Positions 2,320 to 24,342 of a stretch of DNA of 30,168 nucleotides are shown one piece after another. The translations under genes and the position numbers were made by a program. Origin of the DNA: a virus. Every line of letters starts with the position of its first letter. Within the stretch, counting starts at the first letter, position 1. The notes beneath the pieces are model-generated. The model made no database searches. It was not told where the DNA came from and saw only the letters and a program-made list of their open reading frames with translations. The stretch is taken from IMG/VR virus record IMGVR_UViG_3300006026_002941, positions 1 through 30,168 of that record; one strand, written 5' to 3'.

Positions 2320-2634
2320 TTAGAGTTCGTACATGTCTTCGGGGAGTACGGGTGGTAGGGGGTTGTGTTTGTGCCATGCGAAGGTGTCTACGTACATTGG
2401 TGTTCCTTCGCCTATCCACGCACAGTAGATGTTGAATTCTGCGTATTCGATGGCTTCGTCGTCGGTGAGGCCGTCGTTGGTCAGGATTTGGTGTACGGCG
2501 GCTTTTTCGTAGACGGCGATGGTGTGGCCTTTTCGTTCGGTTATGCCGATGAGGGCTTCGTCTAGTCCGTCTGCGATCATCGTGTCGGGGTAGATTTCTT
2601 CTAGTTCTTTAAGGATCTTCTTGTACTTGAGCAT
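2320..2634 (-). CDS. Conserved small actinophage-type protein, 104 aa, unknown function
   Basis: The start chosen is the ATG at 2634 (MLKYKKILKELEEIYP...). A longer open frame runs to 2775, but a consensus promoter lies exactly in front of 2634, leaving only 6 nt between the -10 box and the ATG, so the message is probably leaderless. The segment around residues 70-90 (DEAIEYAEFN..CAWIGEGTPMYVD) resembles a motif I recall from many small actinobacteriophage proteins of unknown role; that is memory, not a search. It is acidic, with no membrane segment. The gene leads a minus-strand operon with the 54-aa protein and the SNF2 helicase. Confidence 0.8.
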   Translation of the reverse strand: MLKYKKILKELEEIYPDTMIADGLDEALIGITERKGHTIAVYEKAAVHQILTNDGLTDDEAIEYAEFNIYCAWIGEGTPMYVDTFAWHKHNPLPPVLPEDMYEL

Positions 2635-2640
2635 GTTTCT

Positions 2641-2669
2641 ATGATAGGTGGGGGTGTGCTTTTTGTCAA
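2641..2669 (-). promoter_or_regulatory. Promoter, leaderless type, for the 104-aa gene
   Basis: On the minus strand TTGACA (2664-2669), a 17-nt spacer, TATCAT (2641-2646), then 6 nt to the ATG at 2634. The transcription start would fall on or next to the start codon. Confidence 0.8.
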
Positions 2670-2938
2670 GGTGTGGTTTCGAACGTTTGTCTGAAAAGGT
2701 CGTAGCGTTTTGGTATCCATCGGAAGAGGTGTGCGGTGAGGTAGAACCAGAAGGTGATGAGGGCTGGTTGCCCAATTTTTGATTGGGAGAATTTGTAGAA
2801 CGCTGCGGACAGGGTAGGGTTTTTGGTTTTCATCGCAACGATGTCGTATGCGGCGATGTATGCGATTAATCCTATCCACGCTATTTCACCGGTTTTTGGT
2901 GGTTTGTTTGTTTGGGGTGTTGTTTGTGTAGGTACCAT
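2666..2938 (-). CDS. Small membrane protein, 90 aa
   Basis: Starts at the ATG at 2938 (MVPTQTTPQTNKPPKTGEI...). A Pro/Thr/Lys-rich head is followed by a hydrophobic span at about residues 18-35 (EIAWIGLIAYIAAYDIVA) and a second at about 58-73 (PALITFWFYLTAHLF), then a short basic/aromatic tail. Two-pass topology is likely. A -10-like TAAGAT lies 6 nt before the ATG, so it may be leaderless. The 3' end reaches the -35 box of the next gene. Small proteins of this layout are frequent in actinophages; the function is unknown. Confidence 0.75.
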   Translation of the reverse strand: MVPTQTTPQTNKPPKTGEIAWIGLIAYIAAYDIVAMKTKNPTLSAAFYKFSQSKIGQPALITFWFYLTAHLFRWIPKRYDLFRQTFETTP

Positions 2939-2944
2939 AGTTGT

Positions 2945-2950
2945 ATCTTA
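2945..2950 (-). promoter_or_regulatory. -10 box (TAAGAT) before the 90-aa membrane protein
   Basis: TAAGAT on the minus strand with 6 nt to the ATG at 2938, the same spacing as the stronger leaderless promoters of this window. No good -35 box is seen 16-18 nt upstream. Confidence 0.45.
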
Positions 2951-2978
2951 CTACACTTTTTGATAGGAGTTTTTGTCT

Positions 2979-3128
2979 GTGAGCTACCGTAATCATACTT
3001 CTTCTGGTTATGTTAAACGTTTCAAAGTTATGAAGGGTTCGCAGGGGGAGGTGAGTAAGGGTTTTAAGAAGGCGGGTAAGAAGCGTGATGACGTGGTTAG
3101 GTGTAAACAGAAAAACCCTCCCGCTTAG
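2979..3128 (+). CDS. Small basic protein, 49 aa
   Basis: A GTG-started frame (MSYRNHTSSGYVKRFKV...) preceded by AGGAG at about 2966-2970, 9 nt before the GTG. The product is strongly basic (many Lys/Arg), probably disordered and possibly nucleic-acid binding. Its TAG stop lies inside the loop of a strong terminator hairpin, supporting a real single-gene transcript. It is a plus-strand gene inside a mostly minus-strand block. No family recognised. Confidence 0.7.
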   Translation: MSYRNHTSSGYVKRFKVMKGSQGEVSKGFKKAGKKRDDVVRCKQKNPPA

Positions 3129-3139
3129 GGGAGGGTTTT
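3112..3139. terminator. Bidirectional rho-independent terminator
   Basis: AAAACCCTCCC (3112-3122), a 6-nt loop, and GGGAGGGTTTT (3129-3139) form an 11-bp perfect stem. It ends in a T run on both strands. It serves the 49-aa gene on the plus strand and the 44-aa/43-aa pair coming from the other side on the minus strand. Confidence 0.9.
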
Positions 3140-3143
3140 GTCT

Positions 3144-3278
3144 TTATGGGCGTCCTTGCCCTCTGTAGCGTTTGCTGTAGTGTTTGGAATTCTTGTTTCG
3201 GGACTGCTTGTTTTTTGAGTGCTGCCCTTTTCGGCTGATGTTCTTCGGATTGTATGTGTTGCTTCCTAGCTTAGCCAT
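3144..3278 (-). CDS. Small very basic protein, 44 aa
   Basis: ATG at 3278 (MAKLGSNTYNPKNISRKG...) preceded by an AAAGGAAAAAGAAA purine stretch suited to ribosome binding. The frame stays open upstream to 3350, but that part overlaps the 43-aa zinc-ribbon gene, so the inner ATG is preferred. The product is Lys/Arg/Asn/Ser rich and low complexity, probably disordered. It overlaps the preceding gene by 8 nt and ends beside the bidirectional terminator, so the two form a mini-operon. Function unknown. Confidence 0.6.
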   Translation of the reverse strand: MAKLGSNTYNPKNISRKGQHSKNKQSRNKNSKHYSKRYRGQGRP

Positions 3279-3402
3279 TTTCTTTTTCCTTTTTTTGTGG
3301 CGGCATCTTGTGACCTTTGGGGCATGTTGCTTTTGCGCCGGGAGGCCCACCTATTGAGATGTCGCATTTTTCGCATCTGTATGTGATCATTGTGTCGTTC
3401 AT
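3271..3402 (-). CDS. Small zinc-ribbon protein, 43 aa
   Basis: ATG at 3402 (MNDTMITYRCEKCDISIGG...) with AAGGA 7 nt upstream. Cys10-x2-Cys13 and a second knuckle CPKGH (Cys27, His31) give a CxxC...C/H zinc-ribbon pattern, followed by a basic Pro/Lys tail. A TATAAT box lies at 3426-3431. It overlaps the 44-aa gene by 8 nt. The function is not known; such short ribbons are often nucleic-acid binding. Confidence 0.7.
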   Translation of the reverse strand: MNDTMITYRCEKCDISIGGPPGAKATCPKGHKMPPQKKEKENG

Positions 3403-3425
3403 GGCCGTTCCTTGAGTCGGTGTTT

Positions 3426-3431
3426 ATTATA
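3426..3431 (-). promoter_or_regulatory. -10 box (TATAAT) for the zinc-ribbon mini-operon
   Basis: A perfect TATAAT on the minus strand, 23 nt before the ATG at 3402, leaving room for a short leader holding the AAGGA ribosome-binding site. No clear -35 box. Confidence 0.6.
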
Positions 3432-3443
3432 GCACTGTTTTTA

Positions 3444-3473
3444 TTGAGTGTTGTTACTCGTTGAGTTTATGCT
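3444..3473 (+). promoter_or_regulatory. Leaderless-type promoter for the 46-aa gene
   Basis: TTGAGT (3444-3449), an 18-nt spacer and TATGCT (3468-3473), then exactly 6 nt to the ATG at 3480. Weaker than consensus, but the -10-to-ATG distance matches the others. Confidence 0.5.
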
Positions 3474-3479
3474 ATTTGT

Positions 3480-3620
3480 ATGACTGATAAGGATCGTATT
3501 ATTGCATCTTTGTTTTTGATTGAGCAGTGTTCTCCTGATGTGTTTTGGGAGAAGGCGGCGTATTTGCTGCGCTCCGGTTTGTCTAGTAAACCTTTTGACG
3601 TTTCTCAGCTTGTGTCTTAA
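3480..3620 (+). CDS. Small protein, 46 aa, unknown function
   Basis: ATG at 3480 (MTDKDRIIASLFLIEQCSPD...). It reads like a compact helical protein (FWEKAAYLLRSG, FDVSQLVS). There is no Shine-Dalgarno sequence, but a -10-like TATGCT sits 6 nt before the ATG. It converges on thyX and overlaps it tail to tail by 4 nt. No family recognised. Confidence 0.6.
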   Translation: MTDKDRIIASLFLIEQCSPDVFWEKAAYLLRSGLSSKPFDVSQLVS

Positions 3621-4294
3621 GGGGCTACTCGCCCATTGTCGATAAAGTGGCCGTATGTGATAGGCATGGCTGCTTGGAAGAATTGTTCTAGCCCGTCTGC
3701 GTACTGTCGGATTTCCCATTGAGCGGTTTCGTCACCTCGGAGGTTGATGAAGTTCATCAGTGCCCGTGCGTTGGTCGTGGCGTAGAACTCACTGTAGGTA
3801 GCTACTGGGAGTACCATGCGTGCTACTTCTTTTGCCACGCCTTCTTCTAGGAGCTTCTCATATGCGTAAAAGCTTCTGTTGTAGGCGGTCTTGATTTGCT
3901 CCATGGAAGGCTTGTAGTCGTCCATCGGCTCGAATGTGTACGCTCCGGGCTTTCCTACCTGTGTCCGCATTTGTTCTGCGTCAGGAATATACGCTTCAGT
4001 CGTCATCTGGGAGTACCGGCCCGAGTATTCGTTGTAGGACCAGCCGATGCGGTGACGGAACCATTCTCGCACTACGAAGATGGGTGCCTTGATGTGGAAC
4101 CTGAAGAAGTTGTGTTCAAACGGGGTTCCGTGCTTTTCTCGCATCAGGAAACCGATGAGGCCCTTGTCTCGTTCGCTGAGTTGTTCGGTTTGGATTCCGA
4201 AGCTGACTCGTGCGGCGTTGACTACGCTTAGGTCGTCGGCGCAGGCTGCGTCAAGACGGATGAACCCGTTGTCTAGGATCGGGATTTCCGTCAT
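3617..4294 (-). CDS. thyX: Flavin-dependent thymidylate synthase ThyX
   Basis: 225 residues from the ATG at 4294, chosen because it overlaps the stop of the upstream dehydratase gene as ATGA; a start four codons earlier exists but lacks this coupling. ThyX converts dUMP to dTMP using FAD, NADPH and methylene-tetrahydrofolate. The ThyX signature is clear: HGTPFEHNFFRFHI (about 55-68) and RHR (80-82) leading to a conserved NEYSGRY block (88-94). The distance from RHR to the Ser is eight residues here, one more than the usual RHRx7S. The operon pairs dTMP synthesis with a dTDP-sugar enzyme. Length is normal for the family. Confidence 0.95.
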   Translation of the reverse strand: MTEIPILDNGFIRLDAACADDLSVVNAARVSFGIQTEQLSERDKGLIGFLMREKHGTPFEHNFFRFHIKAPIFVVREWFRHRIGWSYNEYSGRYSQMTTEAYIPDAEQMRTQVGKPGAYTFEPMDDYKPSMEQIKTAYNRSFYAYEKLLEEGVAKEVARMVLPVATYSEFYATTNARALMNFINLRGDETAQWEIRQYADGLEQFFQAAMPITYGHFIDNGRVAP

Positions 4295-5322
4295 TCGGTT
4301 AGCCACTCCTTGTGCGCCATGGTCCAGAGCACAGTTCGCTTGAATGATTCTTCTAGCCCGATCGGAGCGGTCCAGCCGTGCTCCTTGAGCTTGCTGCCGT
4401 CTAGAGAGTAGCGCAGGTCATGACCGGGACGGCTGGTGTGGTAATCTACCATCTCGTACTTTGGTGTGGTATTAAGAATATCACCGATCATCTTTACGAT
4501 CTCTAGGTTGTTGATCTCCTGCTCACCTGCAACGTTGAATCGCTGAATGTCCGGTGTGAATTCAGCGTCGCTGTACATTATGGGGTCTACGTTTTCCAAC
4601 AGGTACTGAACGGCATCGGCGTGGTTTCGTGCGTGGAGCCACACTCTTGATCCAATGTCCCATGCCCACTCGTCGCCGTCTCCGGGGCGTCCGTGGACGT
4701 GAATGGTTTCGTTGTTGACGATTCGACGGATCACCATCGGCACATACTTCTCGGGGTGCTGACGTTCACCAAAGTTGTTCATGGTGTTGGTGATAGTGAT
4801 TGGGACACCGTAGGTGCGCCAGTAAGAGTAGGCGATTGCTTCCTGCGCCGCCTTAGATGCCGAGTACGGGTTGGAGGGGCGGTGTGGTTCCCCTTCAACA
4901 TGGTCGTGCCCTAGCGGGGCGGGGCCGTACACTTCATCGGTTGATACTTGAATAAACTTTTCTGGCTCAACGTAACGGGCGTACTCTAACATGTTGAGAA
5001 CGAGGTTTACGTTGTTTTGTACAAAGTCAACCGGGTGAGTGATGGACCGGTCTACGTGAGAGTCCGATGCCATATTTACTATGTAGTCGATGTCACCTAG
5101 CTTTTCGATGAGCTGGGAGTGCACTGGTGATCGAAGGTCATGCCAGACGACTTCTACCCGTTTCGGGTCGTAGCCGTCCATGTCAGTTAACCTTTCAATA
5201 CGGCCTGAGAACCGCAAGGCGTCCATTACTACAATGTCCCAGTCGGTGTTCTTCAGCCAATGTTCAACGGTGTGTGATCCGATGAAACCTAAGCCACCGG
5301 TTAGTAGTACTCGCTTGCTCAT
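4291..5322 (-). CDS. rmlB: dTDP-glucose 4,6-dehydratase-like SDR enzyme (RmlB family)
   Basis: 343 residues. The N-terminal Rossmann motif TGGLGFIGS (8-16) binds NAD. STDEVYG carries the Thr-Asp-Glu triad typical of RmlB, YSASK is the SDR Tyr/Lys catalytic pair, and NNFGERQHPEKYVP matches the conserved substrate-binding loop. The family converts dTDP-glucose to dTDP-4-keto-6-deoxyglucose, the precursor of rhamnose and other deoxysugars; related NDP-sugars are possible substrates. No RmlA, C or D is in the window, so the phage probably uses host enzymes for the other steps. AAAGGA precedes the ATG by 6 nt. A consensus promoter and a leader of roughly 100 nt with a stem-loop lie upstream, unlike the leaderless genes. 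Confidence 0.9.
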   Translation of the reverse strand: MSKRVLLTGGLGFIGSHTVEHWLKNTDWDIVVMDALRFSGRIERLTDMDGYDPKRVEVVWHDLRSPVHSQLIEKLGDIDYIVNMASDSHVDRSITHPVDFVQNNVNLVLNMLEYARYVEPEKFIQVSTDEVYGPAPLGHDHVEGEPHRPSNPYSASKAAQEAIAYSYWRTYGVPITITNTMNNFGERQHPEKYVPMVIRRIVNNETIHVHGRPGDGDEWAWDIGSRVWLHARNHADAVQYLLENVDPIMYSDAEFTPDIQRFNVAGEQEINNLEIVKMIGDILNTTPKYEMVDYHTSRPGHDLRYSLDGSKLKEHGWTAPIGLEESFKRTVLWTMAHKEWLTE

Positions 5323-5345
5323 ATTTTCCTTTGTGTTAGTTCGTT

Positions 5346-5374
5346 GGGGATCAGCCCCGTTTGGGACTGACCCC
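5346..5374 (-). promoter_or_regulatory. Leader hairpin upstream of the rmlB-thyX operon
   Basis: On the minus strand GGGGTCAGTCCC, loop AAAC, then GGGGCTGATCCCC. This gives about 12 pairs with one bulged T and one G-T pair. It lies in the transcribed leader between the promoter and the rmlB ribosome-binding site. It has no T run after it, so it looks more like an mRNA structure (stability or control element) than a terminator. Confidence 0.6.
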
Positions 5375-5432
5375 CTGCTTTTGAAAATACCCGTTTGTGT
5401 GTTTACTTTTGTATTTTTAAAAGCGTGTTTTT

Positions 5433-5461
5433 ACTATATGCGATGTGTTTGAAAGTGTCAA
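5433..5461 (-). promoter_or_regulatory. Consensus promoter of the rmlB-thyX operon
   Basis: TTGACA (5456-5461), a 17-nt spacer and TATAGT (5433-5438) on the minus strand. It sits directly after the stop codon of the primase-helicase gene (5463). Transcription would start near 5426, about 100 nt before the rmlB ATG. Confidence 0.85.
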
Positions 5462-5462
5462 G

Positions 5463-7259
5463 TCACCAGGGCGTGACATCATCATCAAAGTCGTCGTTTT
5501 CCAACGCTTCGTTGAGTTCTTCATCGCTGCGGGTCTGTTGCGAATCGTTGTACTGCGAGAATTCGACAACCTCAAACGGCCATGTGGTGCCTCGCTTGCA
5601 GAGTGCAGGCCACTCTCGTGCTTCGCGCTGACCACGGTAATGCTTGAATTCGATCAGTTCAGGATCGGTAGGGTCCGGTGCTAGCGCAATACCAAACTCG
5701 GACCAGCGGGACCAGACGGCTGAGCCGAACGGACGCAAGTCTCGTTGACCGCCTGATCCTAGTGGGGCGTGATGTTCAATCCATAGTGCACAGTTGTAGG
5801 TGTGCCGGATGTAGTCTAGGAACTTTGCGATTTCGATTGAGACTGATTCTGCTGTACGCCCACCGGGGTCAATGAATGCCTTGTAGAGCGGACCGAAGAA
5901 CACAATGTCGGGTTCGATCGTGGCCACATATTCTTCGACTAGAGAGCGGTCGCTTGCGGTCAGCAAGTTTACTCCATCCGGCTTCATCATCAGATGGGCG
6001 TCCATGCTTTCGTGCTTGTCATACCACTTGATCTTGTCGTAGATACGCATAGACGTTCTACGGATAATGCGTTCAGGGTTTTCAAGGTCGATCATGAGTG
6101 TGCGTGCGGGCTTCATTGCGTCCCGCCGGAACGGGTGAATACCTGCGGCAGACATGAGCGCTACCTGTCGTGCGAGTGTTGTTTTACCTGCGCCTTCGGC
6201 AGCTACAACGATGACTCGCTCTTGGCGTTCTAGGACGTTAGGAATAACCCAATCGTAAGATAGGTCTACGTCTGTTTCTAGGAACGGCGTCCATTCAACA
6301 AGGCTGCCCTTGTCACGGTTTTCGGATTCTCCGTCTGACAGGAACGCATCTAGGCTTGAGTTGATTTTGCCCAACACTAGCGATTCTGACAGCTTGTCTT
6401 CTTCGATCGAAGAAAGGTCAGTAATTAGCTTTTGGAGAGCGCTAGGCTCAGCGCTGGCTTCTTCGGTTCCCTCGTAGCTTTCACTATCGAACGGCACTAG
6501 TGATTCGGCTAGCGTTTCTCCAGCAGCTAGCAGATCAGCTACGTCCTTGTGCTTTCCTGGCTTAAAAACCTTTACGTTGCATCCAGCATCGGTTAGCTGC
6601 TTATTGACAGACCTGGCGTGAATGTAACCGGCGTGGTCGTTATCGCAAATGATGATTACGTTGCCGCCAGCTAGAGCTTCAGTGTGGTGAGGCATCCACT
6701 TGTTCTGACCTTCAGCTCCAGCGCCACCAGGGTTAGTGGTTGCAACCTTACCTACAGATTCCAAAGCGTGTACGTCCTTCTCGCCCTCTACGACGTATAC
6801 CGGAATACCTTCTGCTTTAGCTGCGATTACTTGAGGAAGTCGATACAGCGGCTTCTTCAGCTTGGACGTGCTCCAATTCCATCCGCCCTGATTATCGGGC
6901 TGGCGTTGACGGAACGTCTTCTTTCCGTTTTCGTCCACGAAACGCAGCACTTCCATGATGAGACTGCCGTCTTCATCAAAGTACTTGTAAGTGTCCTGTA
7001 GTTCTAGCTTTGCTTTTTTCGGCGGCTTAGTGTCTTTTGGAAAAAGATCACCGATCTCTACGCCGATCTCGGAACAGATCTGGTCTAGCTCACAACCTCC
7101 GCCCCTGAGGCACTTCATAAGTACCTGTCCCTGCTTGCCAACAGAGACTCGGAGAGATGGGTTGTCGTCATCGTTTCTACACGGGCATGTAGCGTCCCAC
7201 TGGTTCTTGCCCGCCTTTTTGTGGTTGATACGTGACAGTACGTTATCAATTGGCTCCAT
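5463..7259 (-). CDS. Bifunctional primase-helicase: zinc finger, Toprim and RecA-like ATPase
   Basis: 598 residues. N-terminal zinc site with Cys25, Cys27, Cys50 and Cys56 (CHC2-like, slightly unusual C-x-C first pair). Toprim domain with EGEKD (158-162) and DND (206-208), the metal-binding acidic residues of primases. An acidic linker (about 255-325) precedes a RepA/DnaB-like RecA-fold ATPase with Walker A AAEGAGKT (353-360) and LMIDLENP (388-395). Phage proteins of this order prime the lagging strand and unwind the fork. AAAGG precedes the ATG by 7 nt. It overlaps the upstream putative loader gene by 14 nt, so the pair is co-translated. The acidic end (DDFDDDVTPW) may be a protein-contact tail. 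No separate DnaB or DNA polymerase is in the window. Confidence 0.9.
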   Translation of the reverse strand: MEPIDNVLSRINHKKAGKNQWDATCPCRNDDDNPSLRVSVGKQGQVLMKCLRGGGCELDQICSEIGVEIGDLFPKDTKPPKKAKLELQDTYKYFDEDGSLIMEVLRFVDENGKKTFRQRQPDNQGGWNWSTSKLKKPLYRLPQVIAAKAEGIPVYVVEGEKDVHALESVGKVATTNPGGAGAEGQNKWMPHHTEALAGGNVIIICDNDHAGYIHARSVNKQLTDAGCNVKVFKPGKHKDVADLLAAGETLAESLVPFDSESYEGTEEASAEPSALQKLITDLSSIEEDKLSESLVLGKINSSLDAFLSDGESENRDKGSLVEWTPFLETDVDLSYDWVIPNVLERQERVIVVAAEGAGKTTLARQVALMSAAGIHPFRRDAMKPARTLMIDLENPERIIRRTSMRIYDKIKWYDKHESMDAHLMMKPDGVNLLTASDRSLVEEYVATIEPDIVFFGPLYKAFIDPGGRTAESVSIEIAKFLDYIRHTYNCALWIEHHAPLGSGGQRDLRPFGSAVWSRWSEFGIALAPDPTDPELIEFKHYRGQREAREWPALCKRGTTWPFEVVEFSQYNDSQQTRSDEELNEALENDDFDDDVTPW

Positions 7260-7713
7260 GGCCGTACCTTTCTAGAATGTAAGCCTCACGTGTCTTTTCG
7301 TAGAGCGACGTAAACATAGCACGGTCGGAGTTGGTTGTCAACGCCGTGGCGTTAGATCCTAACTTTTTGATTGTTTCTGTCAGCACCGGATGAGGCTTTT
7401 CGTAATCGTATGTGCCGCTGTAAATTTTTTGCCCGATTGCTTGAAGGATAGTCCATGCTTGTTCAGGCTCCGGAGGGAGTTCTTCTGAACGCATGTTCGC
7501 TAGGACAAGAATACGAAGCTCGCCTGGGCGTGGCATCCATTTTCGGCCAGCAAGCCCAAGTTCTTTGACTCTGCTCTTCGTTTCTTCATATGGGAGATCT
7601 GAGATGTACTCCCAGAAACCTCGTGACCGTACAAGCAGGGTGTTGTTGTCAATGGGCTTGTCCCATGTGACGCTCAGTAGCTCTACGATCTCTTTACACT
7701 CGCTCTTTTCCAT
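7246..7713 (-). CDS. Putative helicase loader / replisome organiser (G39P-like)
   Basis: 155 residues, all alpha-looking. The pattern WDKPIDNNTLLVRSRGFWEYISDLPYEETKSRVKELG...RKWMPRPGELR resembles the phage G39P/DnaI-type loaders, where a short helical domain ends in a Pro-rich P-x-P-GEL(R) motif. Known members load the replicative helicase onto origin DNA bound by an initiator. The position directly upstream of, and overlapping, the primase-helicase gene supports this role. The gene has a leaderless-type promoter with only 6 nt before the ATG and no Shine-Dalgarno sequence. The assignment rests on motif resemblance and context only. Confidence 0.6.
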   Translation of the reverse strand: MEKSECKEIVELLSVTWDKPIDNNTLLVRSRGFWEYISDLPYEETKSRVKELGLAGRKWMPRPGELRILVLANMRSEELPPEPEQAWTILQAIGQKIYSGTYDYEKPHPVLTETIKKLGSNATALTTNSDRAMFTSLYEKTREAYILERYGHGAN

Positions 7714-7719
7714 AGTTAC

Positions 7720-7748
7720 AGGTTATCTCGCTTTGGTGAGGATGTCAA
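7720..7748 (-). promoter_or_regulatory. Leaderless-type promoter of the loader/primase-helicase operon
   Basis: TTGACA (7743-7748), a 17-nt spacer, TAACCT (7720-7725), then 6 nt to the ATG at 7713, on the minus strand. Confidence 0.75.
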
Positions 7749-7759
7749 TACGATAAAGC

Positions 7760-8346: not shown

Positions 8347-8392
8347 GACCAGTTTGTGGAATTTTGTTTTTCTGTGGTGTAGACTATCTGTT

Positions 8393-8590
8393 ATGAGTCC
8401 TGAAAAAGCCCAAGAGGCATTGCACGCATATTTTGTAGACACGCTGGTTGATCTAGCTGATCCGTCGCCGTCCGAGGAAGAAAACGTTCGTGGCGACATG
8501 GAAGGCGTCATGAACATTATTTTTGAGGGTCTCGGTGTTGAGGTTGTTTCGTCAGATGCGAATCAGGTTTTATTTTCTGTAACGTTTTGA
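8393..8590 (+). CDS. Small acidic protein, 65 aa
   Basis: ATG at 8393 (MSPEKAQEALHAYFVDTL...). The open frame extends upstream to 8330, but no start signal supports that part. A -10-like TAGACT (8380-8385) lies 7 nt before the ATG and there is no Shine-Dalgarno sequence, consistent with a leaderless message. The product is acidic, mixed helix and strand. It is divergent from ssb and overlaps the end of the thymidine kinase gene by 21 nt, tail to tail. Function unknown. Confidence 0.6.
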   Translation: MSPEKAQEALHAYFVDTLVDLADPSPSEEENVRGDMEGVMNIIFEGLGVEVVSSDANQVLFSVTF

Positions 8591-9216: not shown

Positions 9217-9435
9217 TTATTCTTGCTGAGCAGAGTTCCACACCGCTGAACGGTTGGGGTTGTAGTTGGGGCTTACTGTTGCGGGGGTGGGGGTGAATCC
9301 CGAGATGCCCGGGGCGCTGTAGACCTTTTTTACTGAATCGCCGCATGTTGGACACTCCGTCAAGGAGTCTTCGGACATGTTTTGAAACTTTTCGAAGTGC
9401 CCGCATTGAGGGCAAGAGTAATTGTATGTAGGCAT
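9217..9435 (-). CDS. FmdB-type zinc-ribbon protein, 72 aa
   Basis: Start at the ATG at 9435 (MPTYNYSCPQCGHFEKFQNMSED...). Two CxxC knuckles, CPQC (8-11) and CPTC (about 30-33), with the FmdB/CxxC-CxxC-SSSS pattern MPxYxYxCxxCG...F. A Pro/Asn-rich tail follows. The family is annotated as regulatory from one methanogen/Methylophilus member, but most members have no proven role. A leaderless-type promoter precedes it. It is divergent from the secreted poly-Thr protein and sits 35 nt upstream of tdk. Confidence 0.8.
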   Translation of the reverse strand: MPTYNYSCPQCGHFEKFQNMSEDSLTECPTCGDSVKKVYSAPGISGFTPTPATVSPNYNPNRSAVWNSAQQE

Positions 9436-9442
9436 AAACGTT

Positions 9443-9470
9443 ATTATAGCGAATCTCTCAGAAAGGTCAA
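9443..9470 (-). promoter_or_regulatory. Promoter of the FmdB-type gene
   Basis: TTGACC (9465-9470), a 16-nt spacer and a perfect TATAAT (9443-9448), then 7 nt to the ATG at 9435, on the minus strand. Confidence 0.75.
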
Positions 9471-12571: not shown

Positions 12572-12662
12572 AAGTAGACAGCACCGCTTGACGGAGCTAT
12601 CTAGCAGGTGTTAATATAGATAAAGTTGAGCGGTAAGTTTTTAGCTCCTTTTGTACTTATCC

Positions 12663-12983
12663 TTAACGAGTGGAGGTCCCCGGCTTTTTGGTCGGGGACT
12701 TCTTCTTTGTGCGTCGCTTAGGAATGTGCTTGATCCGCTCCACGGGCAGCGAACGATATTGTTCACGCCCGTAGGAGCCGCCGTACACATCAACCCATTC
12801 TGAGATCGGGTTAAACTTGGTGTTGACGACGTGGCGTTTGAACGTGAAGACTCCGCGCTCGCCCCTCACCCTGCACTTGTCGCCAGAGTACAACGTGACC
12901 TGAGGAGAGATGGTGAAATGATTTTCAATCACCCATCCCTCTGGCGGCTGGACCGGAACCTTTGCTTTCTTAACTTTAGGCAT
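12663..12983 (-). CDS. Conserved phage protein, 106 aa, unknown function
   Basis: ATG at 12983 with AGGAG about 8 nt upstream. A compact beta-looking core (VTLYSGDKCRVRGERGVFTF, EWVDVYGG, REQYRSLPVERIKHI) sits between basic ends; the C-terminus is very Lys/Arg/Thr rich and includes codons from the convergent terminator stem. The core resembles small SH3-like proteins I recall in many actinophages, with no known function. A -10-like TATACA lies upstream, 60 nt beyond the recA stop; read-through from recA is also possible. Confidence 0.75.
   Translation of the reverse strand: MPKVKKAKVPVQPPEGWVIENHFTISPQVTLYSGDKCRVRGERGVFTFKRHVVNTKFNPISEWVDVYGGSYGREQYRSLPVERIKHIPKRRTKKKSPTKKPGTSTR
12676..12710 (+). 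terminator. Rho-independent terminator after the holin gene
   Basis: GTCCCCG (12676-12682), a 10-nt T-rich loop, CGGGGAC (12693-12699), then TTCTTCTTTGT on the plus strand. It lies inside the 3' end of the convergent minus-strand gene; on that strand it is not followed by a T run. Confidence 0.75.
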
Positions 12984-13043: not shown

Positions 13044-14033
13044 CTAGGAAATATTTGGAAGAGCAGAGTAGATTGTGTCTGCAATCGTTTCTCTAACATC
13101 GGGGTTTTCATCAAGGTACGTCTTGGTGTTGGCTCGACCCTGGCCGATGTTTTCGCCCTTGTATGCGTACCATGCGCCCTTCTTGTCGATGATTCCCATC
13201 TCTGTGGCGATGTCAACGATGTCGCCGGTACGGTTGATTCCTTCGCCGTAGGTGATTTCAAATTCGGCCTGACGGAACGGGGGAGCAACCTTGTTTTTGA
13301 CAACTTTTACTCGGGTCTTATTTCCGGATGCTTCGCCACCGTCTTTGAGAGTTTCAATGCGTCGAATATCCAAACGGACTGACGCATAAAACTTCAGCGC
13401 CTTGCCGCCTGTCGTAACTTCTGGGGACCCGAACATGACACCAATTTTTTCACGCAGCTGATTGATCATAATCAGGATGGTGTTTGAATGGTTTAGGTTT
13501 GCGACAATCTTACGCATGGCCTGAGACATAAGGCGGGCGTGAAGACCAACGTGGCTGTCGCCCATCTCTCCTTCGATCTCGGCTCGGGGAGTAAGGGCCG
13601 CAACTGAGTCAACGACGACCACATCTAGAGCACCTGACTCAATAAGCTTGTTTGTAATTGTAAGGGCTTGCTCGCCGGTATCTGGCTGGCTAACCAAGAG
13701 GTTGTCTACGTCGCATCCAATAGCTTTAGCATAGATCGGGTCTAGTGCGTGTTCTGCGTCAATGAAAGCGCACTTGCCTCCAAGCTTCTGCGCTTCTGCG
13801 ATAACATGCAGAGCAATAGTGGTCTTGCCTGATGACTCTGGACCGTAAATTTCAGTGACTCGTCCCTTGGGCAGCCCGCCTGCGCCTAGTGCAAGGTCTA
13901 GGGCAATGGAGCCAGTTGAGACGGTTTCGATTTCCATAGATGCTGCGTCGCCTAGGCGCATTACTGTGCCAGCACCGAACTGTTTTTCAATTTGCCCTAA
14001 GGCATCTTCTAAAAGTTTTTCTCTATCTACCAT
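13044..14033 (-). CDS. recA: RecA recombinase
   Basis: 329 residues starting [20 protein letters not shown] at 14033. The frame is open to 14108, but a leaderless promoter with 6 nt before the inner ATG fixes the start. Walker A GPESSGKT (64-71), the Walker B region ([13 protein letters not shown]), DNA-binding loop 1 ([18 protein letters not shown]) and loop 2 ([28 protein letters not shown]) are all intact. It forms filaments on ssDNA and catalyses strand exchange. It lacks the long acidic tail of bacterial RecA. Its promoter faces that of the divergent 14090 gene. A full RecA beside a Rad52-like annealing protein in one phage is notable. Confidence 0.97.
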
Positions 14034-14039
14034 GTTTCT

Positions 14040-14068
14040 ATTGTATGTGTCTAGTGGATGCACGTCAA
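14040..14068 (-). promoter_or_regulatory. Leaderless-type recA promoter
   Basis: TTGACG (14063-14068), a 17-nt spacer, TACAAT (14040-14045), then AGAAAC and the ATG at 14033, on the minus strand. The AGAAAC-ATG junction is identical to that of the 104-aa gene at 2634. Confidence 0.8.
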
Positions 14069-14077
14069 GTGTGCTTG

Positions 14078-14083
14078 TAGAAT
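14078..14083 (+). promoter_or_regulatory. -10 box (TAGAAT), leaderless type, for the 14090 gene
   Basis: TAGAAT with exactly 6 nt to the ATG at 14090. A weak -35 (TGGATG, 14055-14060) would lie 17 nt upstream and inside the recA promoter spacer, so the two divergent promoters interleave. Confidence 0.6.
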
Positions 14084-14089
14084 AAATGT

Positions 14090-14449
14090 ATGGAGAAACG
14101 CGGCCCAAAGCGACTTGTCAAAGATGCGATCCGTGTCGGTGAGTATGGTGATACTCATTGGCGCTTAGTGCTGTCGTGTTCTCATGAGCTAGATAGTAAA
14201 CGGAAGCCGAAGGTGGGTGAAGACAAAGTTTGCTGCAAGAAGTGTATTTCCTCTGAATCACTTGCTGTTGTAACGGCTCCCGCAGAGCTTGTCTATGATT
14301 TACTTGATCCTGAAGATCCTATGGCAGAGTTGAAGGCAAAGGCCACGATTGCTTCGCATTTTGATGTGTCTTTGGACCAGATTGAGCTGAGGGGCAGTAC
14401 TGCGACTATATTTATTGATGCTCAACAGTTGAGGAATATTTTGAGATGA
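14090..14449 (+). CDS. Possible zinc-binding protein, 119 aa, unknown function
   Basis: Starts [20 protein letters not shown]... at 14090. A Cys-x-His pair (CSH, about 30-32) and a Cys-Cys-x2-Cys group (CCKKC, about 48-52) could bind zinc. The C-terminal half ([49 protein letters not shown]) reads as a small alpha/beta domain. There is no Shine-Dalgarno sequence; a TAGAAT box lies 6 nt upstream. The stop overlaps the next ATG (ATGA), so it is co-translated with the ATP-grasp-like gene. No family recognised. Confidence 0.7.
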
Positions 14450-16543: not shown

Positions 16544-17048
16544 AGTCACTGTAAATTTTGTAATCGGCGTCTTCAGCAAATTCGTTACGGACACCCTGCG
16601 TTACGGAATACGCTTTCTCATAGCCTGCAGCTTTCACAAGGGCTACAACTCTGTCATCGTACTCGCCGTAAGGATACCTCAAATATTTTGTAGGAAAGGG
16701 TGCGGTAATTTCTTTGATGATATCTCGATCGGAAAGCTTCGTCAAGTCTCTATGCGACCACGTATGCCAACCAATCTCAAAGTTGTACAAAGAACACAAC
16801 TGCTTCACTTGAGATAGTGTGCAGTACCTCTCTAGCTTTGGTACATGTTCTAGGTCGAAAGTGTTATCTTTCCCCATTTCGTTTCCCATTACGAACATGA
16901 TCCCTGACTTGCCTTCTAAAATGTCTTGGTTTTCAAAAACGTTTAAGTATACGCCGTCGAAACCGATCGGTTCACCGCACGCCAGGATTTGCTCCCGTGT
17001 GTGATAGTTAGAGTGCTTTTCTGTCCCAATGTTGTGGGCAAGTCTCAT
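16527..17048 (-). CDS. Polysaccharide deacetylase (NodB-like)
   Basis: 173 residues from the ATG at 17048, which overlaps the methyltransferase stop as ATGA. NodB/carbohydrate esterase 4 motifs: motif 2 HTWSH (95-99, metal-binding His pair), motif 3 RYPYGEYDD (124-132). Motif 1, usually TFDDG, is reduced to GFDG (29-32), keeping one Asp. The family removes N-acetyl groups from GlcNAc-type sugars with a metal ion. No signal peptide, so it would act in the cytoplasm, on an activated sugar or lipid-linked precursor, unlike secreted peptidoglycan deacetylases. The degenerate motif 1 leaves activity uncertain. Confidence 0.8.
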   Translation of the reverse strand: MRLAHNIGTEKHSNYHTREQILACGEPIGFDGVYLNVFENQDILEGKSGIMFVMGNEMGKDNTFDLEHVPKLERYCTLSQVKQLCSLYNFEIGWHTWSHRDLTKLSDRDIIKEITAPFPTKYLRYPYGEYDDRVVALVKAAGYEKAYSVTQGVRNEFAEDADYKIYSDYVSFD

Positions 17049-17539
17049 CGGTACTCCCAAATATCAATTACATGTAAGTATTCACGGTACTGAATTTCAA
17101 AGTGACGTATGCGGGTGCCAAAGTTGTAAGGTTTCAACCAGCTTTTGATTCCGGCAATCATGACCAACGTTTCGTGCGTGTCGGACGCTGCTTCATGAAT
17201 CAAGTTAGCCATCGCCGCATGATCATACTGCTCGTAGAGAACACCTGTAGCAATAACCAGATCGTACTTGCTGTCGATTTCTGTTACCCGTTCTACCCCG
17301 TCAGGAAGACGCTTGGCAGCAGCGTCGCTTATTTCAAAAGCGTGCTTTTCGATCGCTGGAAGGTCCTTGGTTATCCAGCCTTCTCCAGCCCCAATATCAA
17401 GTGCTCGGCTAAAGACTGGGCCTACGTCTTCTAGGACGGCCATATAGAAGTTCTTACGGTAAAGATCTTCGGGGTCTTGCTGGTAGTTCCAGGGGTCACT
17501 GTCTTCGTACCAGTTTTCGAGTTCTTGCTTAGTCTGCAT
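17045..17539 (-). CDS. SAM-dependent methyltransferase (NodS-like)
   Basis: 164 residues. The class I motif I is ALDIGAGEGWIT (about 46-57), with acidic motif II FEIS and motif IV-like YDLVIATGVLYEQ. The N-terminus WYEDSDPWNYQQDPEDLYRKNFYMAVL resembles the NodS group, which N-methylates deacetylated amino-sugars. It is followed by a NodB-like deacetylase, matching the nodB-nodS logic (deacetylate, then N-methylate), though gene order here is methyltransferase first. It begins the minus-strand operon and has a leaderless promoter. The NodS likeness is from motif reading; another small-molecule methyltransferase is possible. Confidence 0.8.
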   Translation of the reverse strand: MQTKQELENWYEDSDPWNYQQDPEDLYRKNFYMAVLEDVGPVFSRALDIGAGEGWITKDLPAIEKHAFEISDAAAKRLPDGVERVTEIDSKYDLVIATGVLYEQYDHAAMANLIHEAASDTHETLVMIAGIKSWLKPYNFGTRIRHFEIQYREYLHVIDIWEYR

Positions 17540-17545
17540 GGTCTT

Positions 17546-17574
17546 ATTGTATCCTGGGGGCTGTATTTAGGCAA
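17546..17574 (-). promoter_or_regulatory. Leaderless-type promoter of the methyltransferase-deacetylase-PhyH-GT2 operon
   Basis: TTGCCT (17569-17574), a 17-nt spacer, TACAAT (17546-17551), then 6 nt to the ATG at 17539, on the minus strand. Confidence 0.7.
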
Positions 17575-17659
17575 TAAGGTCCCTCCCGTTCGTGTGGTAG
17601 TTGCTGCTACTCACAAACGGCATAGGCGAACCCGTATCTTCATTCTCAGGTCTGTTCAC
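17567..17659 (-). CDS. Tentative small ORF, 30 aa
   Basis: A GTG-started frame (MNRPENEDTGSPMPF...) that ends inside the -35 region of the methyltransferase operon promoter. An earlier GTG at 17677 would give 36 residues. The ribosome-binding site is weak (TTGGGG, 8 nt upstream). It is listed because the gap otherwise has no gene and the frame follows the better-supported 42-aa ORF on the same strand. It may be chance. Confidence 0.3.
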   Translation of the reverse strand: MNRPENEDTGSPMPFVSSSNYHTNGRDLIA

Positions 17660-17719
17660 TGCATCGACCCCAAGCACCGCCTATTTTTTCAGCGATGCCC
17701 ACTCTCCCTAGATATGGCT

Positions 17720-17848
17720 CTAGTAGCCCGTGTGCCGGAACCGCATGGGCGTTTGCTTGTTCCGAACCTGTTCCTCAAGGCTTGATGTTCTACGTGCAGG
17801 GACTGGCGTACTAGCAGGTACGGGGTTCCAGTTTATCGTGTGATCCAT
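17720..17848 (-). CDS. Small protein, 42 aa, unknown function
   Basis: ATG at 17848 (MDHTINWNPVPASTPVPARR...) with AAAGAGGA 5 nt upstream, a good ribosome-binding site. The product is Pro/Thr/Arg rich, with a short charged helix-like part (SLEEQVRNKQ), and no membrane segment. A GGGCA/TGCCC hairpin lies in its leader. No family recognised; support comes from the ribosome-binding site and the absence of any competing gene. Confidence 0.5.
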   Translation of the reverse strand: MDHTINWNPVPASTPVPARRTSSLEEQVRNKQTPMRFRHTGY

Positions 17849-18104
17849 ATCGTTCCTCTTTGGGCAGGCGTGCCCTCTTTTTCTTAAGTGTTAGTACCAG
17901 TTGCGTAACGAGTGTAACCCACCGGTCCTGTAGTGAACGTTTATGTCATCGGGATTTCCCGGCGTCAGTCTTGTGGCGTGAGGCTCCTTCTGTAGTTTGC
18001 AGGTAGCCTACCGTTCTGGTTGGTGTCGGTCAAGCCACGTTTCTTCTGGTTTGCTTGACACGAAACATTTATAATATTTTTGTTACTGATCGAAAAGGAG
18101 TCGA
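17849..18104. other. Intergenic stretch between divergent units, no convincing gene
   Basis: About 250 nt between the 42-aa gene (minus) and the WhiB-like gene (plus). It has several short dyads (CGGGATTTCCCG near 17950, GGTAGCCTACC near 18002) and no open frame with a good start. A minus-strand frame around 17889-17951 reads M-T-stop-TFTTGPVGYTRYATGTNT, so a short gene interrupted by a TAA codon is conceivable. TTGACA (18055-18060) and TATAAT (18070-18075) precede whiB but are only 9 nt apart. It could hold a regulatory region or a small RNA; neither is shown. Confidence 0.5.
17862..17885 (+). terminator. Terminator-like hairpin, plus strand
   Basis: GGGCA, loop GGCG, TGCCC (17862-17875), followed by TCTTTTTCTT. 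The stem is short (5 bp) but the T run is good. No plus-strand gene leads into it, so it may end antisense transcription, or act on the minus strand as a leader hairpin of the 42-aa gene. Confidence 0.45.
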
Positions 18105-18762: not shown

Positions 18763-18773
18763 AAGGAAACATA

Positions 18774-20721: not shown

Positions 20722-20724
20722 GTC

Positions 20725-21183
20725 ATGTCGCAGACCGATAACTTTGCAATGTTGGTGTCTGAAGACATCAAGAACAACGCTTCTCAGCAGGATAAAGATT
20801 TTCTTCGCCTCCCAGAGAATCAGGTAAAATGGAGAGATGCACTAATCACTATCGTTGAGACGGTCACTGCAAAGATCGCAAGTCTAGACGAAGAGATTTC
20901 TCGCCTTCGTGGAACATATACTACCTTCACGATCGACCCTGCTGCGGGGTTAGAAGAACAGCGCTACAAAGCAGCACGGTTTCGGTTTTATGCGGAAAAG
21001 CGTTTGGTCGAAGTAGACAGGTTGCTTACCCTCGGAGAAGAAGCCGACCCTGAACTGTCGCTTGCCACGTTTTTGCGAAATGCAATTGTAGCCCACAAGC
21101 AGTGGCATATAGATAACGACATGGTTAATTCAGAAGGCGATGATTGCTTGTATAAAGCTTTAGACGGGGTTTGGGGTTTCTAA
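20725..21183 (+). CDS. Phage protein with coiled-coil, 152 aa, unknown function
   Basis: ATG at 20725, 3 nt after the nuclease stop. A helical N-terminal half (DKDFLRLPENQVKWRDALITIVETVTAKIASLDEEISRLRGTYT) is followed by EEQRYKAARFRFYAEKRLVEVDRLL, a motif resembling conserved actinophage proteins of unknown role. The C-terminus is mixed (FLRNAIVAHKQWHIDNDMV). It may assist recombination or replication by position. The stop overlaps the start of the GT4 gene (TAATG). Confidence 0.7.
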   Translation: MSQTDNFAMLVSEDIKNNASQQDKDFLRLPENQVKWRDALITIVETVTAKIASLDEEISRLRGTYTTFTIDPAAGLEEQRYKAARFRFYAEKRLVEVDRLLTLGEEADPELSLATFLRNAIVAHKQWHIDNDMVNSEGDDCLYKALDGVWGF

Positions 21184-22280: not shown

Positions 22281-22753
22281 AGCGAGGTAAGCCTCTAAAG
22301 AGAACACCGTTGAAGCGTGGTAGTAGTCAGTTGAAGAGAACTCCTTTAAAGAAGCGTTCCGATAAGATGTCGGAAAAGTATGTGGGCCGTCGAAGCATTG
22401 TTAAGCAACTTCTGTCTGAACGCCCGCATTGTGAAGCTTGTTTGGTGTGGGCTTCTTACGATTATCAGACCGGCAATAGTGATTCTCTTTTCGTTAAGCA
22501 TAATAAAAGTAAAGACATTCACGAACTTGTGAATAGGTCACAAGGCGGAAGCATCTTGGAGTATGAGAATCTACTGGCTGTGTGCAGGCCATGTCACAGT
22601 AGAATAACTACAGAACCTTTAATTTCTGAAATGCTTGGCCTTCATTTAAAAAGCACGTCAAACAAAATGTCGCATTTCCTCGAAGCAGAAAGGGTAAGAA
22701 ATGCCTGGAAAAACGGAACTCCTGCAGAACCTTATTGGTTCAGCTCTAACTGA
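22277..22753 (+). CDS. HNH endonuclease, copy 1
   Basis: 158 residues starting at the ATG that overlaps the GT4 stop (ATGA). A basic head with the repeated KRTPLKR motif (residues 8-14 and 20-26) likely binds DNA. The HNH core is CEAC (about 52-55), IHELVNRSQGGSILEYENLLAVCRPCHSRIT (about 81-111), with the paired CxxC zinc knuckles and a His at IHE as the catalytic candidate. Such proteins nick DNA in packaging, recombination or homing. It overlaps the next gene by 53 nt in another frame, which is long for a neighbour overlap. Confidence 0.85.
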   Translation: MKRGKPLKRTPLKRGSSQLKRTPLKKRSDKMSEKYVGRRSIVKQLLSERPHCEACLVWASYDYQTGNSDSLFVKHNKSKDIHELVNRSQGGSILEYENLLAVCRPCHSRITTEPLISEMLGLHLKSTSNKMSHFLEAERVRNAWKNGTPAEPYWFSSN

Positions 22754-23600
22754 GCATCCCGATCTACTAGACGAAATCAACAGCCTATCTGGAGGGTTCG
22801 CTGATAGCGATCTTCCATTTTTAGATAGAGAGGAAGTTAACGAATCGTTTCTTTCTGATATCCAGAAGGGATGGAGGCATAACGGTGTTGTAATTGTTGA
22901 CTCGTTGATTCCCGACGACATGATTGAAGCATACCGTCAAGACTGGATTCAGCATAATCGTGTCAACCATGATCGTCCTTTGGGCTACCCTGGCGAGTGT
23001 GCTTACTTTCAGGTAGAAAGTCTAATGAATATCGCTACCTATGCTCCATTAAGTAATATCCTTGAGCATCTTATTGGCGATCAGATGGGTATTCATTTGA
23101 ACTTGACTGGTTGGAAGTCCACAGAACGGAACTGGCACCAAGACGGGTATTTGAATCCTGACACGAATAAGGATCATTACTTGGCTGTGTGGGTTGCATT
23201 GGATGATGTGCATGAAGATGCTGGCCCATTTGAGTATGTTCCGGGTAGTCATGTTCTTCCGGTTATTACGCAAGATGCAACAAAGTCTAGGTTAGAGCCT
23301 CATGAGCGAGATGATCCTAACTGGCCTAAGTACTCGGAGCGCTTCCTTACTCCCATGTTTGAAGACATCTTACATCGTGGCAACCTTTCGACTGAAAAGT
23401 TTATCGCCAAGAAGGGTGATGTATTAATTTGGCATGCACGCTTGATGCATCGAGGCGCAATTCCAAACAATCCAGACTTGTGGAGAGAGACAGCAATTCT
23501 CCACTATTCAGGTGTGAATCATCGTCCCGATATGCCACAAGGGTACCAGTATCAGGACGGTGGATGGTTCTTCCCAATCAATCAAAACATTCCTTTGTGA
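22701..23600 (+). CDS. Phytanoyl-CoA dioxygenase (PhyH) family protein, copy 2
   Basis: 299 residues from the ATG at 22701 (AAAGGGTAAGA upstream). HxD as WHQD (His146, Asp148), distal His240 (RLMHRGA) and Arg252 (WRET) give a full Fe(II)/2-oxoglutarate site. The core ALDDVHEDAGPFEYVPGSH is classic PhyH. It differs clearly from copy 1 at 15794-16543, so it is not a recent duplicate. It sits between two HNH genes and near a glycosyltransferase and methyltransferase. Substrate unknown. The start is inside the HNH gene; the first 45 residues are not essential for the fold, so a later start cannot be excluded. Confidence 0.88.
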   Translation: MPGKTELLQNLIGSALTEHPDLLDEINSLSGGFADSDLPFLDREEVNESFLSDIQKGWRHNGVVIVDSLIPDDMIEAYRQDWIQHNRVNHDRPLGYPGECAYFQVESLMNIATYAPLSNILEHLIGDQMGIHLNLTGWKSTERNWHQDGYLNPDTNKDHYLAVWVALDDVHEDAGPFEYVPGSHVLPVITQDATKSRLEPHERDDPNWPKYSERFLTPMFEDILHRGNLSTEKFIAKKGDVLIWHARLMHRGAIPNNPDLWRETAILHYSGVNHRPDMPQGYQYQDGGWFFPINQNIPL

Positions 23601-23601
23601 G

Positions 23602-23982
23602 ATGGCTGCCAATTACGGGACAGCGGCTAAAGCTAAAGCCACAAAGTTACACAGTCTACTTGTGAGGACTCGTGATGGGTTTCGCTGTCGCTGGTGCGGG
23701 GTTCACAAAGATGACGGCAAGCAGATACAGTGCGCTCATATAATCAGTCGGTCTATCTCGGCTACTAGGACTGATGAAAAGAATGCGGTTGCCTTGTGTG
23801 CGTCGTGCCATTGGAAGCAGTCTAAAAACCCGCTGGTTTGGGCGAGATGGCTTGAAGATGAGCTAGGTAGAGAGCATTTAGACGATCTGCTGGAACGTGG
23901 CGTTTCGGGGGTGAAGGTTGACTGGGGCAGTGAAGCCGAACGCCTACAGTCTATTATTGACGAGATGAATGGAAATGGATAG
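23602..23982 (+). CDS. HNH endonuclease, copy 2
   Basis: 126 residues from the ATG at 23602 (MAANYGTAAKAKATKLHSL...), one base after the PhyH stop. The HNH/zinc core is CRWCG (about 30-34), IQCAHIISRSISATRTDEKNAVALCASCHWK (about 43-73): CxxC pairs bind zinc, and AHIISR...NA...CH is the beta-beta-alpha-metal site. The acidic C-terminus resembles phage recombination-type HNH proteins. Its 3' end contains a consensus leaderless promoter for the next gene. It could act as a structure-specific nuclease beside the Rad52-like system. Confidence 0.85.
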   Translation: MAANYGTAAKAKATKLHSLLVRTRDGFRCRWCGVHKDDGKQIQCAHIISRSISATRTDEKNAVALCASCHWKQSKNPLVWARWLEDELGREHLDDLLERGVSGVKVDWGSEAERLQSIIDEMNGNG

Positions 23983-23985
23983 AAT
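23957..23985 (+). promoter_or_regulatory. Leaderless-type promoter inside the second HNH gene
   Basis: TTGACG (23957-23962), a 17-nt spacer, TAGAAT (23980-23985), then 6 nt to the ATG at 23992. It starts a new transcription unit within the long plus-strand run. Confidence 0.8.
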
Positions 23986-23991
23986 AGCGAC

Positions 23992-24342
23992 ATGAATAGT
24001 ACGAGAACTGCGCCAATCAGTCAGGTTGAAGTTGAGTCTGAACTTGTCCGCTTGATTGGTGAAATTGAGCAAGAAACTGAAGCATTTGAGATCCTGTGCA
24101 AGGATCATGCCCAAAAAGAAGCGTCTTACAAGAGCGCTTGGTATAAGGAATATCTAGCAGCGGAAGGTGCCGTGAAGCAGAAAGAAAGCTGGGCGGGTTA
24201 CAAGACAAGCGATCTTCAGTACGATTCTATGATCGCTGAAGCGTTGGTTAAAGCGAAGCGTGAACGTCTTCATTCATTACGCACTGCCTGCGATGCCTTG
24301 CGCACGATTGCAGCAAATGTCAGATCGCAAGTAAAGTTTTAG
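23992..24342 (+). CDS. Coiled-coil phage protein, 116 aa, unknown function
   Basis: ATG at 23992 without a Shine-Dalgarno sequence but with a consensus promoter whose -10 box ends 6 nt before it. Nearly all helical (VEVESELVRLIGEIEQETEAFEILCKDHAQKEASYKSAWYKEYL... AKRERLHSLRTACDALRTIAANVRSQ). The C-terminal LRTxxDxLRTIAANVRxQ is a motif I recall from many small actinophage proteins near recombination genes. No enzymatic motif is seen. Confidence 0.75.
   Translation: MNSTRTAPISQVEVESELVRLIGEIEQETEAFEILCKDHAQKEASYKSAWYKEYLAAEGAVKQKESWAGYKTSDLQYDSMIAEALVKAKRERLHSLRTACDALRTIAANVRSQVKF

Follow-up and report, generated by a model that had tools for sequence, protein, structure and literature searches.

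In Actinobacteria, a TANNNT box about 12 bp upstream of the start codon marks leaderless genes, which account on average for 19.2% of genes (PMC3160421), and in mycobacteria an RTG triplet at +1 is both necessary and sufficient for leaderless translation, with C preferred at position -1 in M. tuberculosis (PMC4633059). Promoters of this kind have also been predicted in phages: three leaderless SigA promoters, two of them divergent, in Cluster O mycobacteriophages (PMC4351075), and one, for gene 90, in phage Adephagia (PMC11373665). In the Thermus phage phiYS40, leaderless mRNAs are tied to time (PMC3594737). Here we describe a set of predicted leaderless promoters in an uncultured virus, whose entire IMG/VR record IMGVR_UViG_3300006026_002941 (30,168 bases) was analysed and is referred to as the window.

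The promoter architecture is real and systematic, and it is conserved in the nearer group of relatives, which confirms the preliminary description of a recurring layout (TTGAC(A/G) or a near match, N17, TANNNT, N6, ATG) in a form stronger than that first stated. It is very probable, judging from the comparisons presented below, that these are housekeeping-type promoters set to make the A of the ATG, or a base next to it, the first to be transcribed, giving leaderless mRNA. They resemble the leaderless genes of Actinobacteria (PMC3160421, PMC4633059) in the position of TANNNT, the lack of a Shine-Dalgarno site, the status of a minority class and the ability of orthologs to change class; they differ in belonging to uncultured viruses and in having near-consensus -35 boxes, some promoters within operons and one interlocked pair. 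The Cluster O promoters PL1, PR2 and PL2 (PMC4351075) are similar in that the predicted +1 is the first base of the start codon, and PL1 and PR2, too, are divergent promoters in a shared intergenic region. Three promoters are named there, whereas here 8-19 genes were found per record in seven records of 61-128 kb, with conservation among orthologs. Leaderless promoters were already known in actinobacteria and predicted in actinophages, and the present set is a well-supported further case. Among the top-ranked results of a literature search, none dealt with leaderless genes as a genome-wide class of uncultured actinophages, which is weak evidence of absence, most subscription journals lying outside the search.

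Fixed spacing of promoter boxes and start codons

Relatives were collected by scanning viral contigs with the primase/helicase of the window (5463-7259), which yielded 52 loci at 42-100% identity; the per-locus promoter counts given below include the window itself and its near-copies. The strict pattern consisted of TTGAC, a spacer between the hexamers of 16-18 bases, TANNNT, six or seven bases (N6 or N7, the bases separating the -10 box from the ATG) and ATG. The complete records behind 17 loci were searched for it; these records are not independent of each other (G013 and G015 are near-copies of the window, G007 and G008 share matches, and G004 and G009 are close). A set of eight genomes comprised the window and seven records at 66-84% primase identity; 106 of their 756 predicted genes were leaderless by automatic criteria. 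In the window, the ten ATGs cited in the preliminary description were read on both strands and the starts were scanned separately; hand reading gave 11 leaderless starts among about 42 genes, the denominator being a matter of judgement.

Sequence, spacing and enrichment were observed directly. The window contains the strict pattern six times, whereas 1000 dinucleotide shuffles gave it 0.11 times on average and never more than twice, and the 17 records contain 100 matches, with at least one in every record, against 3 for the reversed pattern; searches of the genome and of relatives had been proposed with the preliminary description, and both bear it out. In the 52 loci plus the window (909 predicted genes, 1721 candidate starts), TANNNT was found at N6 in 258 cases and at N7 in 73, with 7-52 at other offsets, and when a -35 box was required the numbers were 99, 35 and 0-14, respectively. 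The eight genomes gave 72 cases at N6 and 12 at N7 with a -35 box (at least four of five bases), each of the other 98 offsets having 0-11. A count free of gene prediction, made on the same eight sequences, found 254 TTGAC...TANNNT sites; an ATG followed 65 of these exactly at N6, opening at least 40 codons in 61 cases, and each of the other offsets from 0 to 40 had 0-10. Among the matches listed in a search of the virus collection, at least 60 codons were opened by 86/132 at N6 versus 42/116 at N9. A second spacing, N11/12, gave 1, 0 and 3 matches in three records (G001, G003 and G005), versus 8, 14 and 13 for N6/7. TANNNT therefore stands at a fixed distance of about 12 bp before the start codon, with a sharp peak at N6 and a shoulder at N7, and the TTGAC box lies at a spacing of 17+/-1 bp from it.

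The consensus over 91 unique N6 sites was TTGACa-N17-TAnaAT-A, with G at -14 in 63%. We also considered a shared start-associated sequence (a conserved 13 bp, 3-9 bp before starts), which was rejected, as positions -5 to -2 of these sites carry 0.02-0.08 bit. The start-associated sequences of Cluster K (PMC11373665) are alike in being a recurring element just before many start codons; they are conserved 13-bp sequences, whereas here the promoter boxes alone are common.

Leaderless genes lack Shine-Dalgarno sites: a Shine-Dalgarno-like 4-mer precedes 8/84 leaderless starts, 296/672 other predicted starts and 221/3149 internal ATGs. A pyrimidine occupies position -1 in 89% of the 106 leaderless starts; the share is 50% for other ATG starts (524) and 54% for internal ATGs (3149). 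This preference is predicted if transcription starts at the A of the ATG. Both features are direct observations. The existence of two translation classes, as originally suggested, is thus strongly supported by sequence and comparison, and the genes with long leaders (rmlB, ssb and tdk) do have purine-rich Shine-Dalgarno-like sites. For ssb, TANNNT at N5-8 was found in 0/41 loci.

Predicted leaderless starts in the window

Five starts had been quoted with both boxes, and in each of them the boxes, the N17 spacer and the six bases before the ATG are as quoted; the strands, which had not been stated, are minus for the first four and plus for the last. The gene at 2320..2669 (104 amino acids, phrog_13182, unknown function) has its ATG at 2634, a -10 box TATCAT at 2641-2646 and a -35 box TTGACA at 2664-2669. 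Directly ahead of the primase/helicase, a gene for 155 amino acids (7246..7748) starts at 7713, with TAACCT at 7720-7725 and TTGACA at 7743-7748. The recA gene (13044..14068) starts at 14033, with TACAAT at 14040-14045 and TTGACG at 14063-14068, and shares the junction AGAAAC-ATG with the gene at 2634, as had been noted. A methyltransferase-like gene (17045..17574), identified by weak Pfam matches below the cut-off, starts at 17539, with TACAAT at 17546-17551 and TTGCCT at 17569-17574. The plus-strand gene at 23957..24342 (116 amino acids, phrog_1389) has TTGACG at 23957-23962, TAGAAT at 23980-23985 and its ATG at 23992; its promoter lies within an operon and overlaps the end of the preceding gene.

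Five further starts had been described as having a good -10 box only. TANNNT is indeed present in all of them, at N6 for 2938, 3480 and 14090 and at N7 for 8393 and 9435, but the label itself does not hold throughout. The minus-strand gene for a zinc-ribbon protein (9217..9470; 72 amino acids, Zn_ribbon_8/FmdB-like) is a full case, with TTGACC at 9465-9470, N16, TATAAT at 9443-9448, N7 and the ATG at 9435. A small open reading frame (ORF) of 46 amino acids on the plus strand (3444..3620) has TTGAGT at 3444-3449, N18, TATGCT at 3468-3473 and its ATG at 3480. The remaining three have a weak -35 box: the gene at 2666..2950 (minus strand, 90 amino acids, DUF7427) with TAAGAT at 2945-2950 and its ATG at 2938; the gene at 8357..8590 (plus strand, 65 amino acids) with a -35-like TGGAAT at 8357-8362, TAGACT at 8380-8385 and its ATG at 8393; and the gene at 14055..14449 (plus strand, 119 amino acids, unknown function, conserved Cys/His), with TGGATG at 14055-14060, N17, TAGAAT at 14078-14083 and its ATG at 14090.

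The scan of window starts added one full case that had been overlooked, a ParB-like gene on the plus strand (26898..27461) with TTGACT at 26898-26903, N18, TAAGTT at 26922-26927, N6 and its ATG at 26934. Its promoter is embedded in the 3' end of the preceding gene and the start site lies within an operon. The suggestion that leaderless genes are the first genes of operons follows from the mechanism, because a leaderless position is possible only for the first gene of a transcript; the start sites of 23992 and 26934 lie inside an operon.

Conservation among orthologs

Leaderless status, judged by comparison of orthologs, is gene-specific. The five ortholog groups of recA, 14090, 7713, 23992 and 26934 are leaderless in 8/8 genomes, and over 76 groups with at least four members there are 206 pairs in which both genes are leaderless, whereas 2000 shuffles of the labels gave 39 such pairs on average and at most 68. 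This conservation, like the spacing, was observed directly. Orthologs of the 7713 gene have TANNNT at N6 together with 5/5 bases of TTGAC in 30/33 loci, and the invariant columns of 15 such promoters, when aligned, are TTGAC and TA...T. Three of the starts first described by a -10 box alone are conserved as well: a -10 box is present at N6 in 5/5 loci for both the 2938 (TANNNT) and the 3480 orthologs, and at N6/N7 in 25/27 loci for the 8393 orthologs. For 2634 the -10 box is at N6/N7 in 11 of the 14 matching loci, eight of them at 38-46% identity, and the 17539 orthologs are leaderless in two of the three genomes having one. Elsewhere in the group, an AhpC/TSA (peroxiredoxin-like) gene of one relative (G002, 17466-17978, minus strand) is leaderless, its ortholog group occurring in four genomes and being leaderless in three. 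Genes can also switch class: rmlB is leaderless in three near-copies (L006, L007 and L009) among 16 loci, and thyX in one (L017) among 24.

Interlocked promoters of recA and gene 14090

The most distinctive part of the system is the region between recA (minus strand, start at 14033) and the divergent gene at 14090. The 56-bp gap (14034..14089) is filled by both leaderless promoters, each -35 box falling within the spacer of its partner. Of 20 distinct upstream sequences, 16 have a gap of 56 bp; in the other four it is 57 (G009), 2845 (G004) and 74 (L026, a nearest-ATG choice which is probably wrong), with no value for L032. Alignment of 13 of the 16 (mean pairwise identity 62%) showed both -10 boxes and the recA -35 box to be invariant, and the -35 box of 14090 to be weaker and variable. 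The two promoters may be mutually exclusive, since interlocked promoters would not hold two polymerases together. Bidirectional bacterial promoters (PMC12825309) would be comparable in that binding in one orientation blocks the other. Those are pseudo-symmetrical, whereas the present pair consists of two distinct -35/-10 promoters that interlock, and for both genes the coding sequence is predicted to begin with the first base of the transcript.

The 14090 product of the window matched no Pfam or PHROG family, and a scan of 16 members of its family gave stray matches alone, at E 0.025 or worse and in one member each. Its AlphaFold2 model is modest (predicted local distance difference test, pLDDT, 75.9; predicted template modelling score, pTM, 0.40). 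The conserved Cys/His residues suggest a metal site.

Alternative explanations

Several observations weigh against the interpretation given above. The four most distant records (L031, L034, L045 and L050, primase identity 43-49%) contain 3, 3, 1 and 1 strict matches in 34-145 kb; the leaderless class is shown for the nearer group of relatives and was not seen to reach far. The promoter is missing from the 2634 orthologs of L017, L020 and L023 and from the 7713 orthologs of L017, L024 and L032, and recA of the distant L032 (58% identity) is not leaderless, GGAG preceding its ATG. GGAG also occurs in nine of the 15 aligned 7713-ortholog promoters, toward the 3' end of the spacer and immediately ahead of the -10 box, and could be a distant Shine-Dalgarno site if transcription also began farther upstream. 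Efficient leaderless translation in the host is assumed. Moreover, a -10 box plus ATG without a -35 box was found 39 times in the window, versus a shuffle mean of 25.0 (sd 4.9, max 42). Such matches are mildly enriched and mean little alone; the starts first described by their -10 box only therefore rest on the comparison with relatives.

This mild excess over shuffles is the kind of signal that a chance or compositional artefact would give, with AT-rich bases before start codons mimicking -10 boxes. That explanation is practically excluded: with the -35 box included, the window and the 17 records exceed their controls as described, and it is ruled out by the offset profile, with its peak at N6 and smaller shoulder at N7, and by ortholog conservation, in which the conserved columns are the promoter boxes. 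It might also be supposed that the promoters are real and that transcription begins at least one base from the A of the ATG, resulting in very short leaders (1-5 nucleotides). The N7 cases (8393 and 9435 in the window; 73 beside 258 N6 in the 52 loci plus window) predict exactly this, or else a start one base farther from the -10 box. The pyrimidine preference (88-89%), however, falls on the base directly before the ATG, and N6 exceeds N7, 72 to 12, when the -35 box is present, which makes leaders of this sort very unlikely.

Another possibility concerns function. The leaderless promoters and the two translation classes of the preliminary description stand, but its further suggestion of a timing device is not supported. 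In a temporal device, leaderless genes would form one time class, selectively translated when the phage or its infection alters the initiation factors (higher IF2/IF3), and phiYS40 provides the precedent: most of its middle and late mRNAs are leaderless, with IF2 going up and IF3 down (PMC3594737). Both phages have a systematic leaderless class, the one in phiYS40 being a time class and the one described here, known from sequence alone, cutting across gene modules. Leaderless status is gene-specific and conserved, and it is denser in the module corresponding to the window (54/283 genes versus 44/428 elsewhere in seven records; odds ratio 2.1, p=0.001). This density, uncorrected for long structural operons, is not evidence for an early class, because such operons are expected to hold few promoters of any kind. 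Outside the module, leaderless genes include a tail assembly chaperone (phrog_5088; group leaderless in 4/5 genomes) and a helix-turn-helix gene with helicase-associated, sigma-region-4 and late-activator matches (leaderless in 6/6 genomes), so that an early-only class is not supported by gene content. Set beside the middle and late confinement of phiYS40, the leaderless set holds recA and the gene ahead of the primase (8/8 genomes) and, in addition, genes on the structural side. Early and middle genes are not distinguishable by their content, and recA and the replication genes could be middle genes, which would make a middle-plus-late class compatible with the data. Against it, ssb has no such promoter in any of its 41 loci, and rmlB and thyX change class among relatives. 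On balance we consider a temporal device unlikely.

Host and occurrence in named phages

The virus probably infects actinobacteria, as indicated by the promoter type and by the kinds of named phage that have a related primase. A primase match occurred in 130 records of named phages; 97 of these belong to phages of Gordonia, Microbacterium or Arthrobacter, all below 60% identity. Two scans of genome contigs, with the primase and with RmlB-like queries, found no relative.

In 13 named comparison phages there were 11 strict matches versus 2 reversed. Six of the 11 are in Gordonia phage Huffy (KY471268.1, 0.7-2.2 kb and 25.6 kb) and have a partly shared spacer; four of their ATGs are annotated starts (genes 2, 3, 6 and 36), one lies 6 nucleotides inside gene 5 and one inside gene 6. 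BruhMoment, Tank, Rakim, Hyperion and Firecracker have one match each, and in the Arthrobacter phages BruhMoment (gene 70) and Tank (gene 61) it falls exactly on the annotated recombinase start. No strict match was found in Beagle, Kumao, Hanem, Cantare, a Salinibacter phage, lambda or HTVC010P. The cI mRNA of lambda is leaderless, and the strict pattern evidently misses non-consensus promoters, given its zero matches in that phage.

Additional sequence features

Runs of the promoter (TTGAC-...-TANNNT-N6/7-ATG) before short ORFs were noted in virus contigs which had been chosen by the promoter pattern: L179 (G018, 133-145 kb), L359 (G019, 68-75 kb), L375 (G020, 11-17 kb) and G023. Sites opening at least 40 codons number 20, 17 and 10 in L179, L359 and L375, respectively. 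G018 and G019 have 26-43% GC over most of their length and 50-57% in the run stretch; an assembly chimera is less likely, as the same layout is found in two records.

In the window, a promoter-like element at 12588-12617 (plus strand; TTGACG-N18-TAATAT) has no ATG at N6/N7 and points antisense into 12663-12983. L025 and L027, both near-copies of the window, have the identical element; it was not found in L005, L028 or L029. The gene for an SNF2-type helicase (268-2157, minus strand) has third codon positions of 63% C, 33% A, 4% G and 0% T, and the GC skew around this region is near 0.5. A direct tandem duplication of 61 bp (27787-27907; 96% matches) spans the boundary between one ORF, which ends at 27808, and the next, which starts at 27817, and the very end of the record (1-127) consists of 12.7 copies of the 10-bp tandem repeat CGGAGAGGGC.

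Conclusions

In the mechanism that we infer for the sigma factor, the actual 5' ends and the translation of leaderless mRNA, the housekeeping (sigma-A type) RNA polymerase of the host would bind TTGACA and TANNNT(A), with a spacer of 17+/-1, and start seven bases past the -10 box, on the A of the ATG or no more than one base from it. The mRNA would have no 5' untranslated region (UTR) and no Shine-Dalgarno site, and ribosomes would load on the 5'-terminal AUG, which is reported to be efficient for mycobacterial ribosomes. Each promoter would be a self-contained expression start, whether at the head of an operon, within one, or interlocked as in recA/14090, and other genes (ssb, rmlB and tdk in the window record) would use leaders with Shine-Dalgarno sites.

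A more speculative view, to which we attach little weight, is that the leaderless set might be a phage regulon bypassing the Shine-Dalgarno route, which would keep core genes (recA, the gene ahead of the primase, the ParB-like gene, 14090 and 23992) translated when the host damages or withholds canonical initiation. The recA and 14090 genes would then form a conserved, mutually exclusive switch, and the runs of 10-20 short ORFs in other viral contigs, each with its own leaderless promoter, might be an extreme form of the regulon.

The proposed mechanism has a practical use: a promoter followed by ATG fixes start codons that gene finders may misplace, as illustrated by a simple gene predictor which put the recA and 2634 starts at upstream TTG codons. 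Two of the arrangements described, the 56-bp interlocked recA/14090 promoter and the runs in other contigs, offer designs for gene control that needs no 5' UTR, and these can be tested. Comparative statistics, rather than single examples, indicate that leaderless initiation is a stable, gene-specific trait of this group of uncultured viruses, with a design that appears precise to about one base and is kept while the sequence between the boxes diverges.

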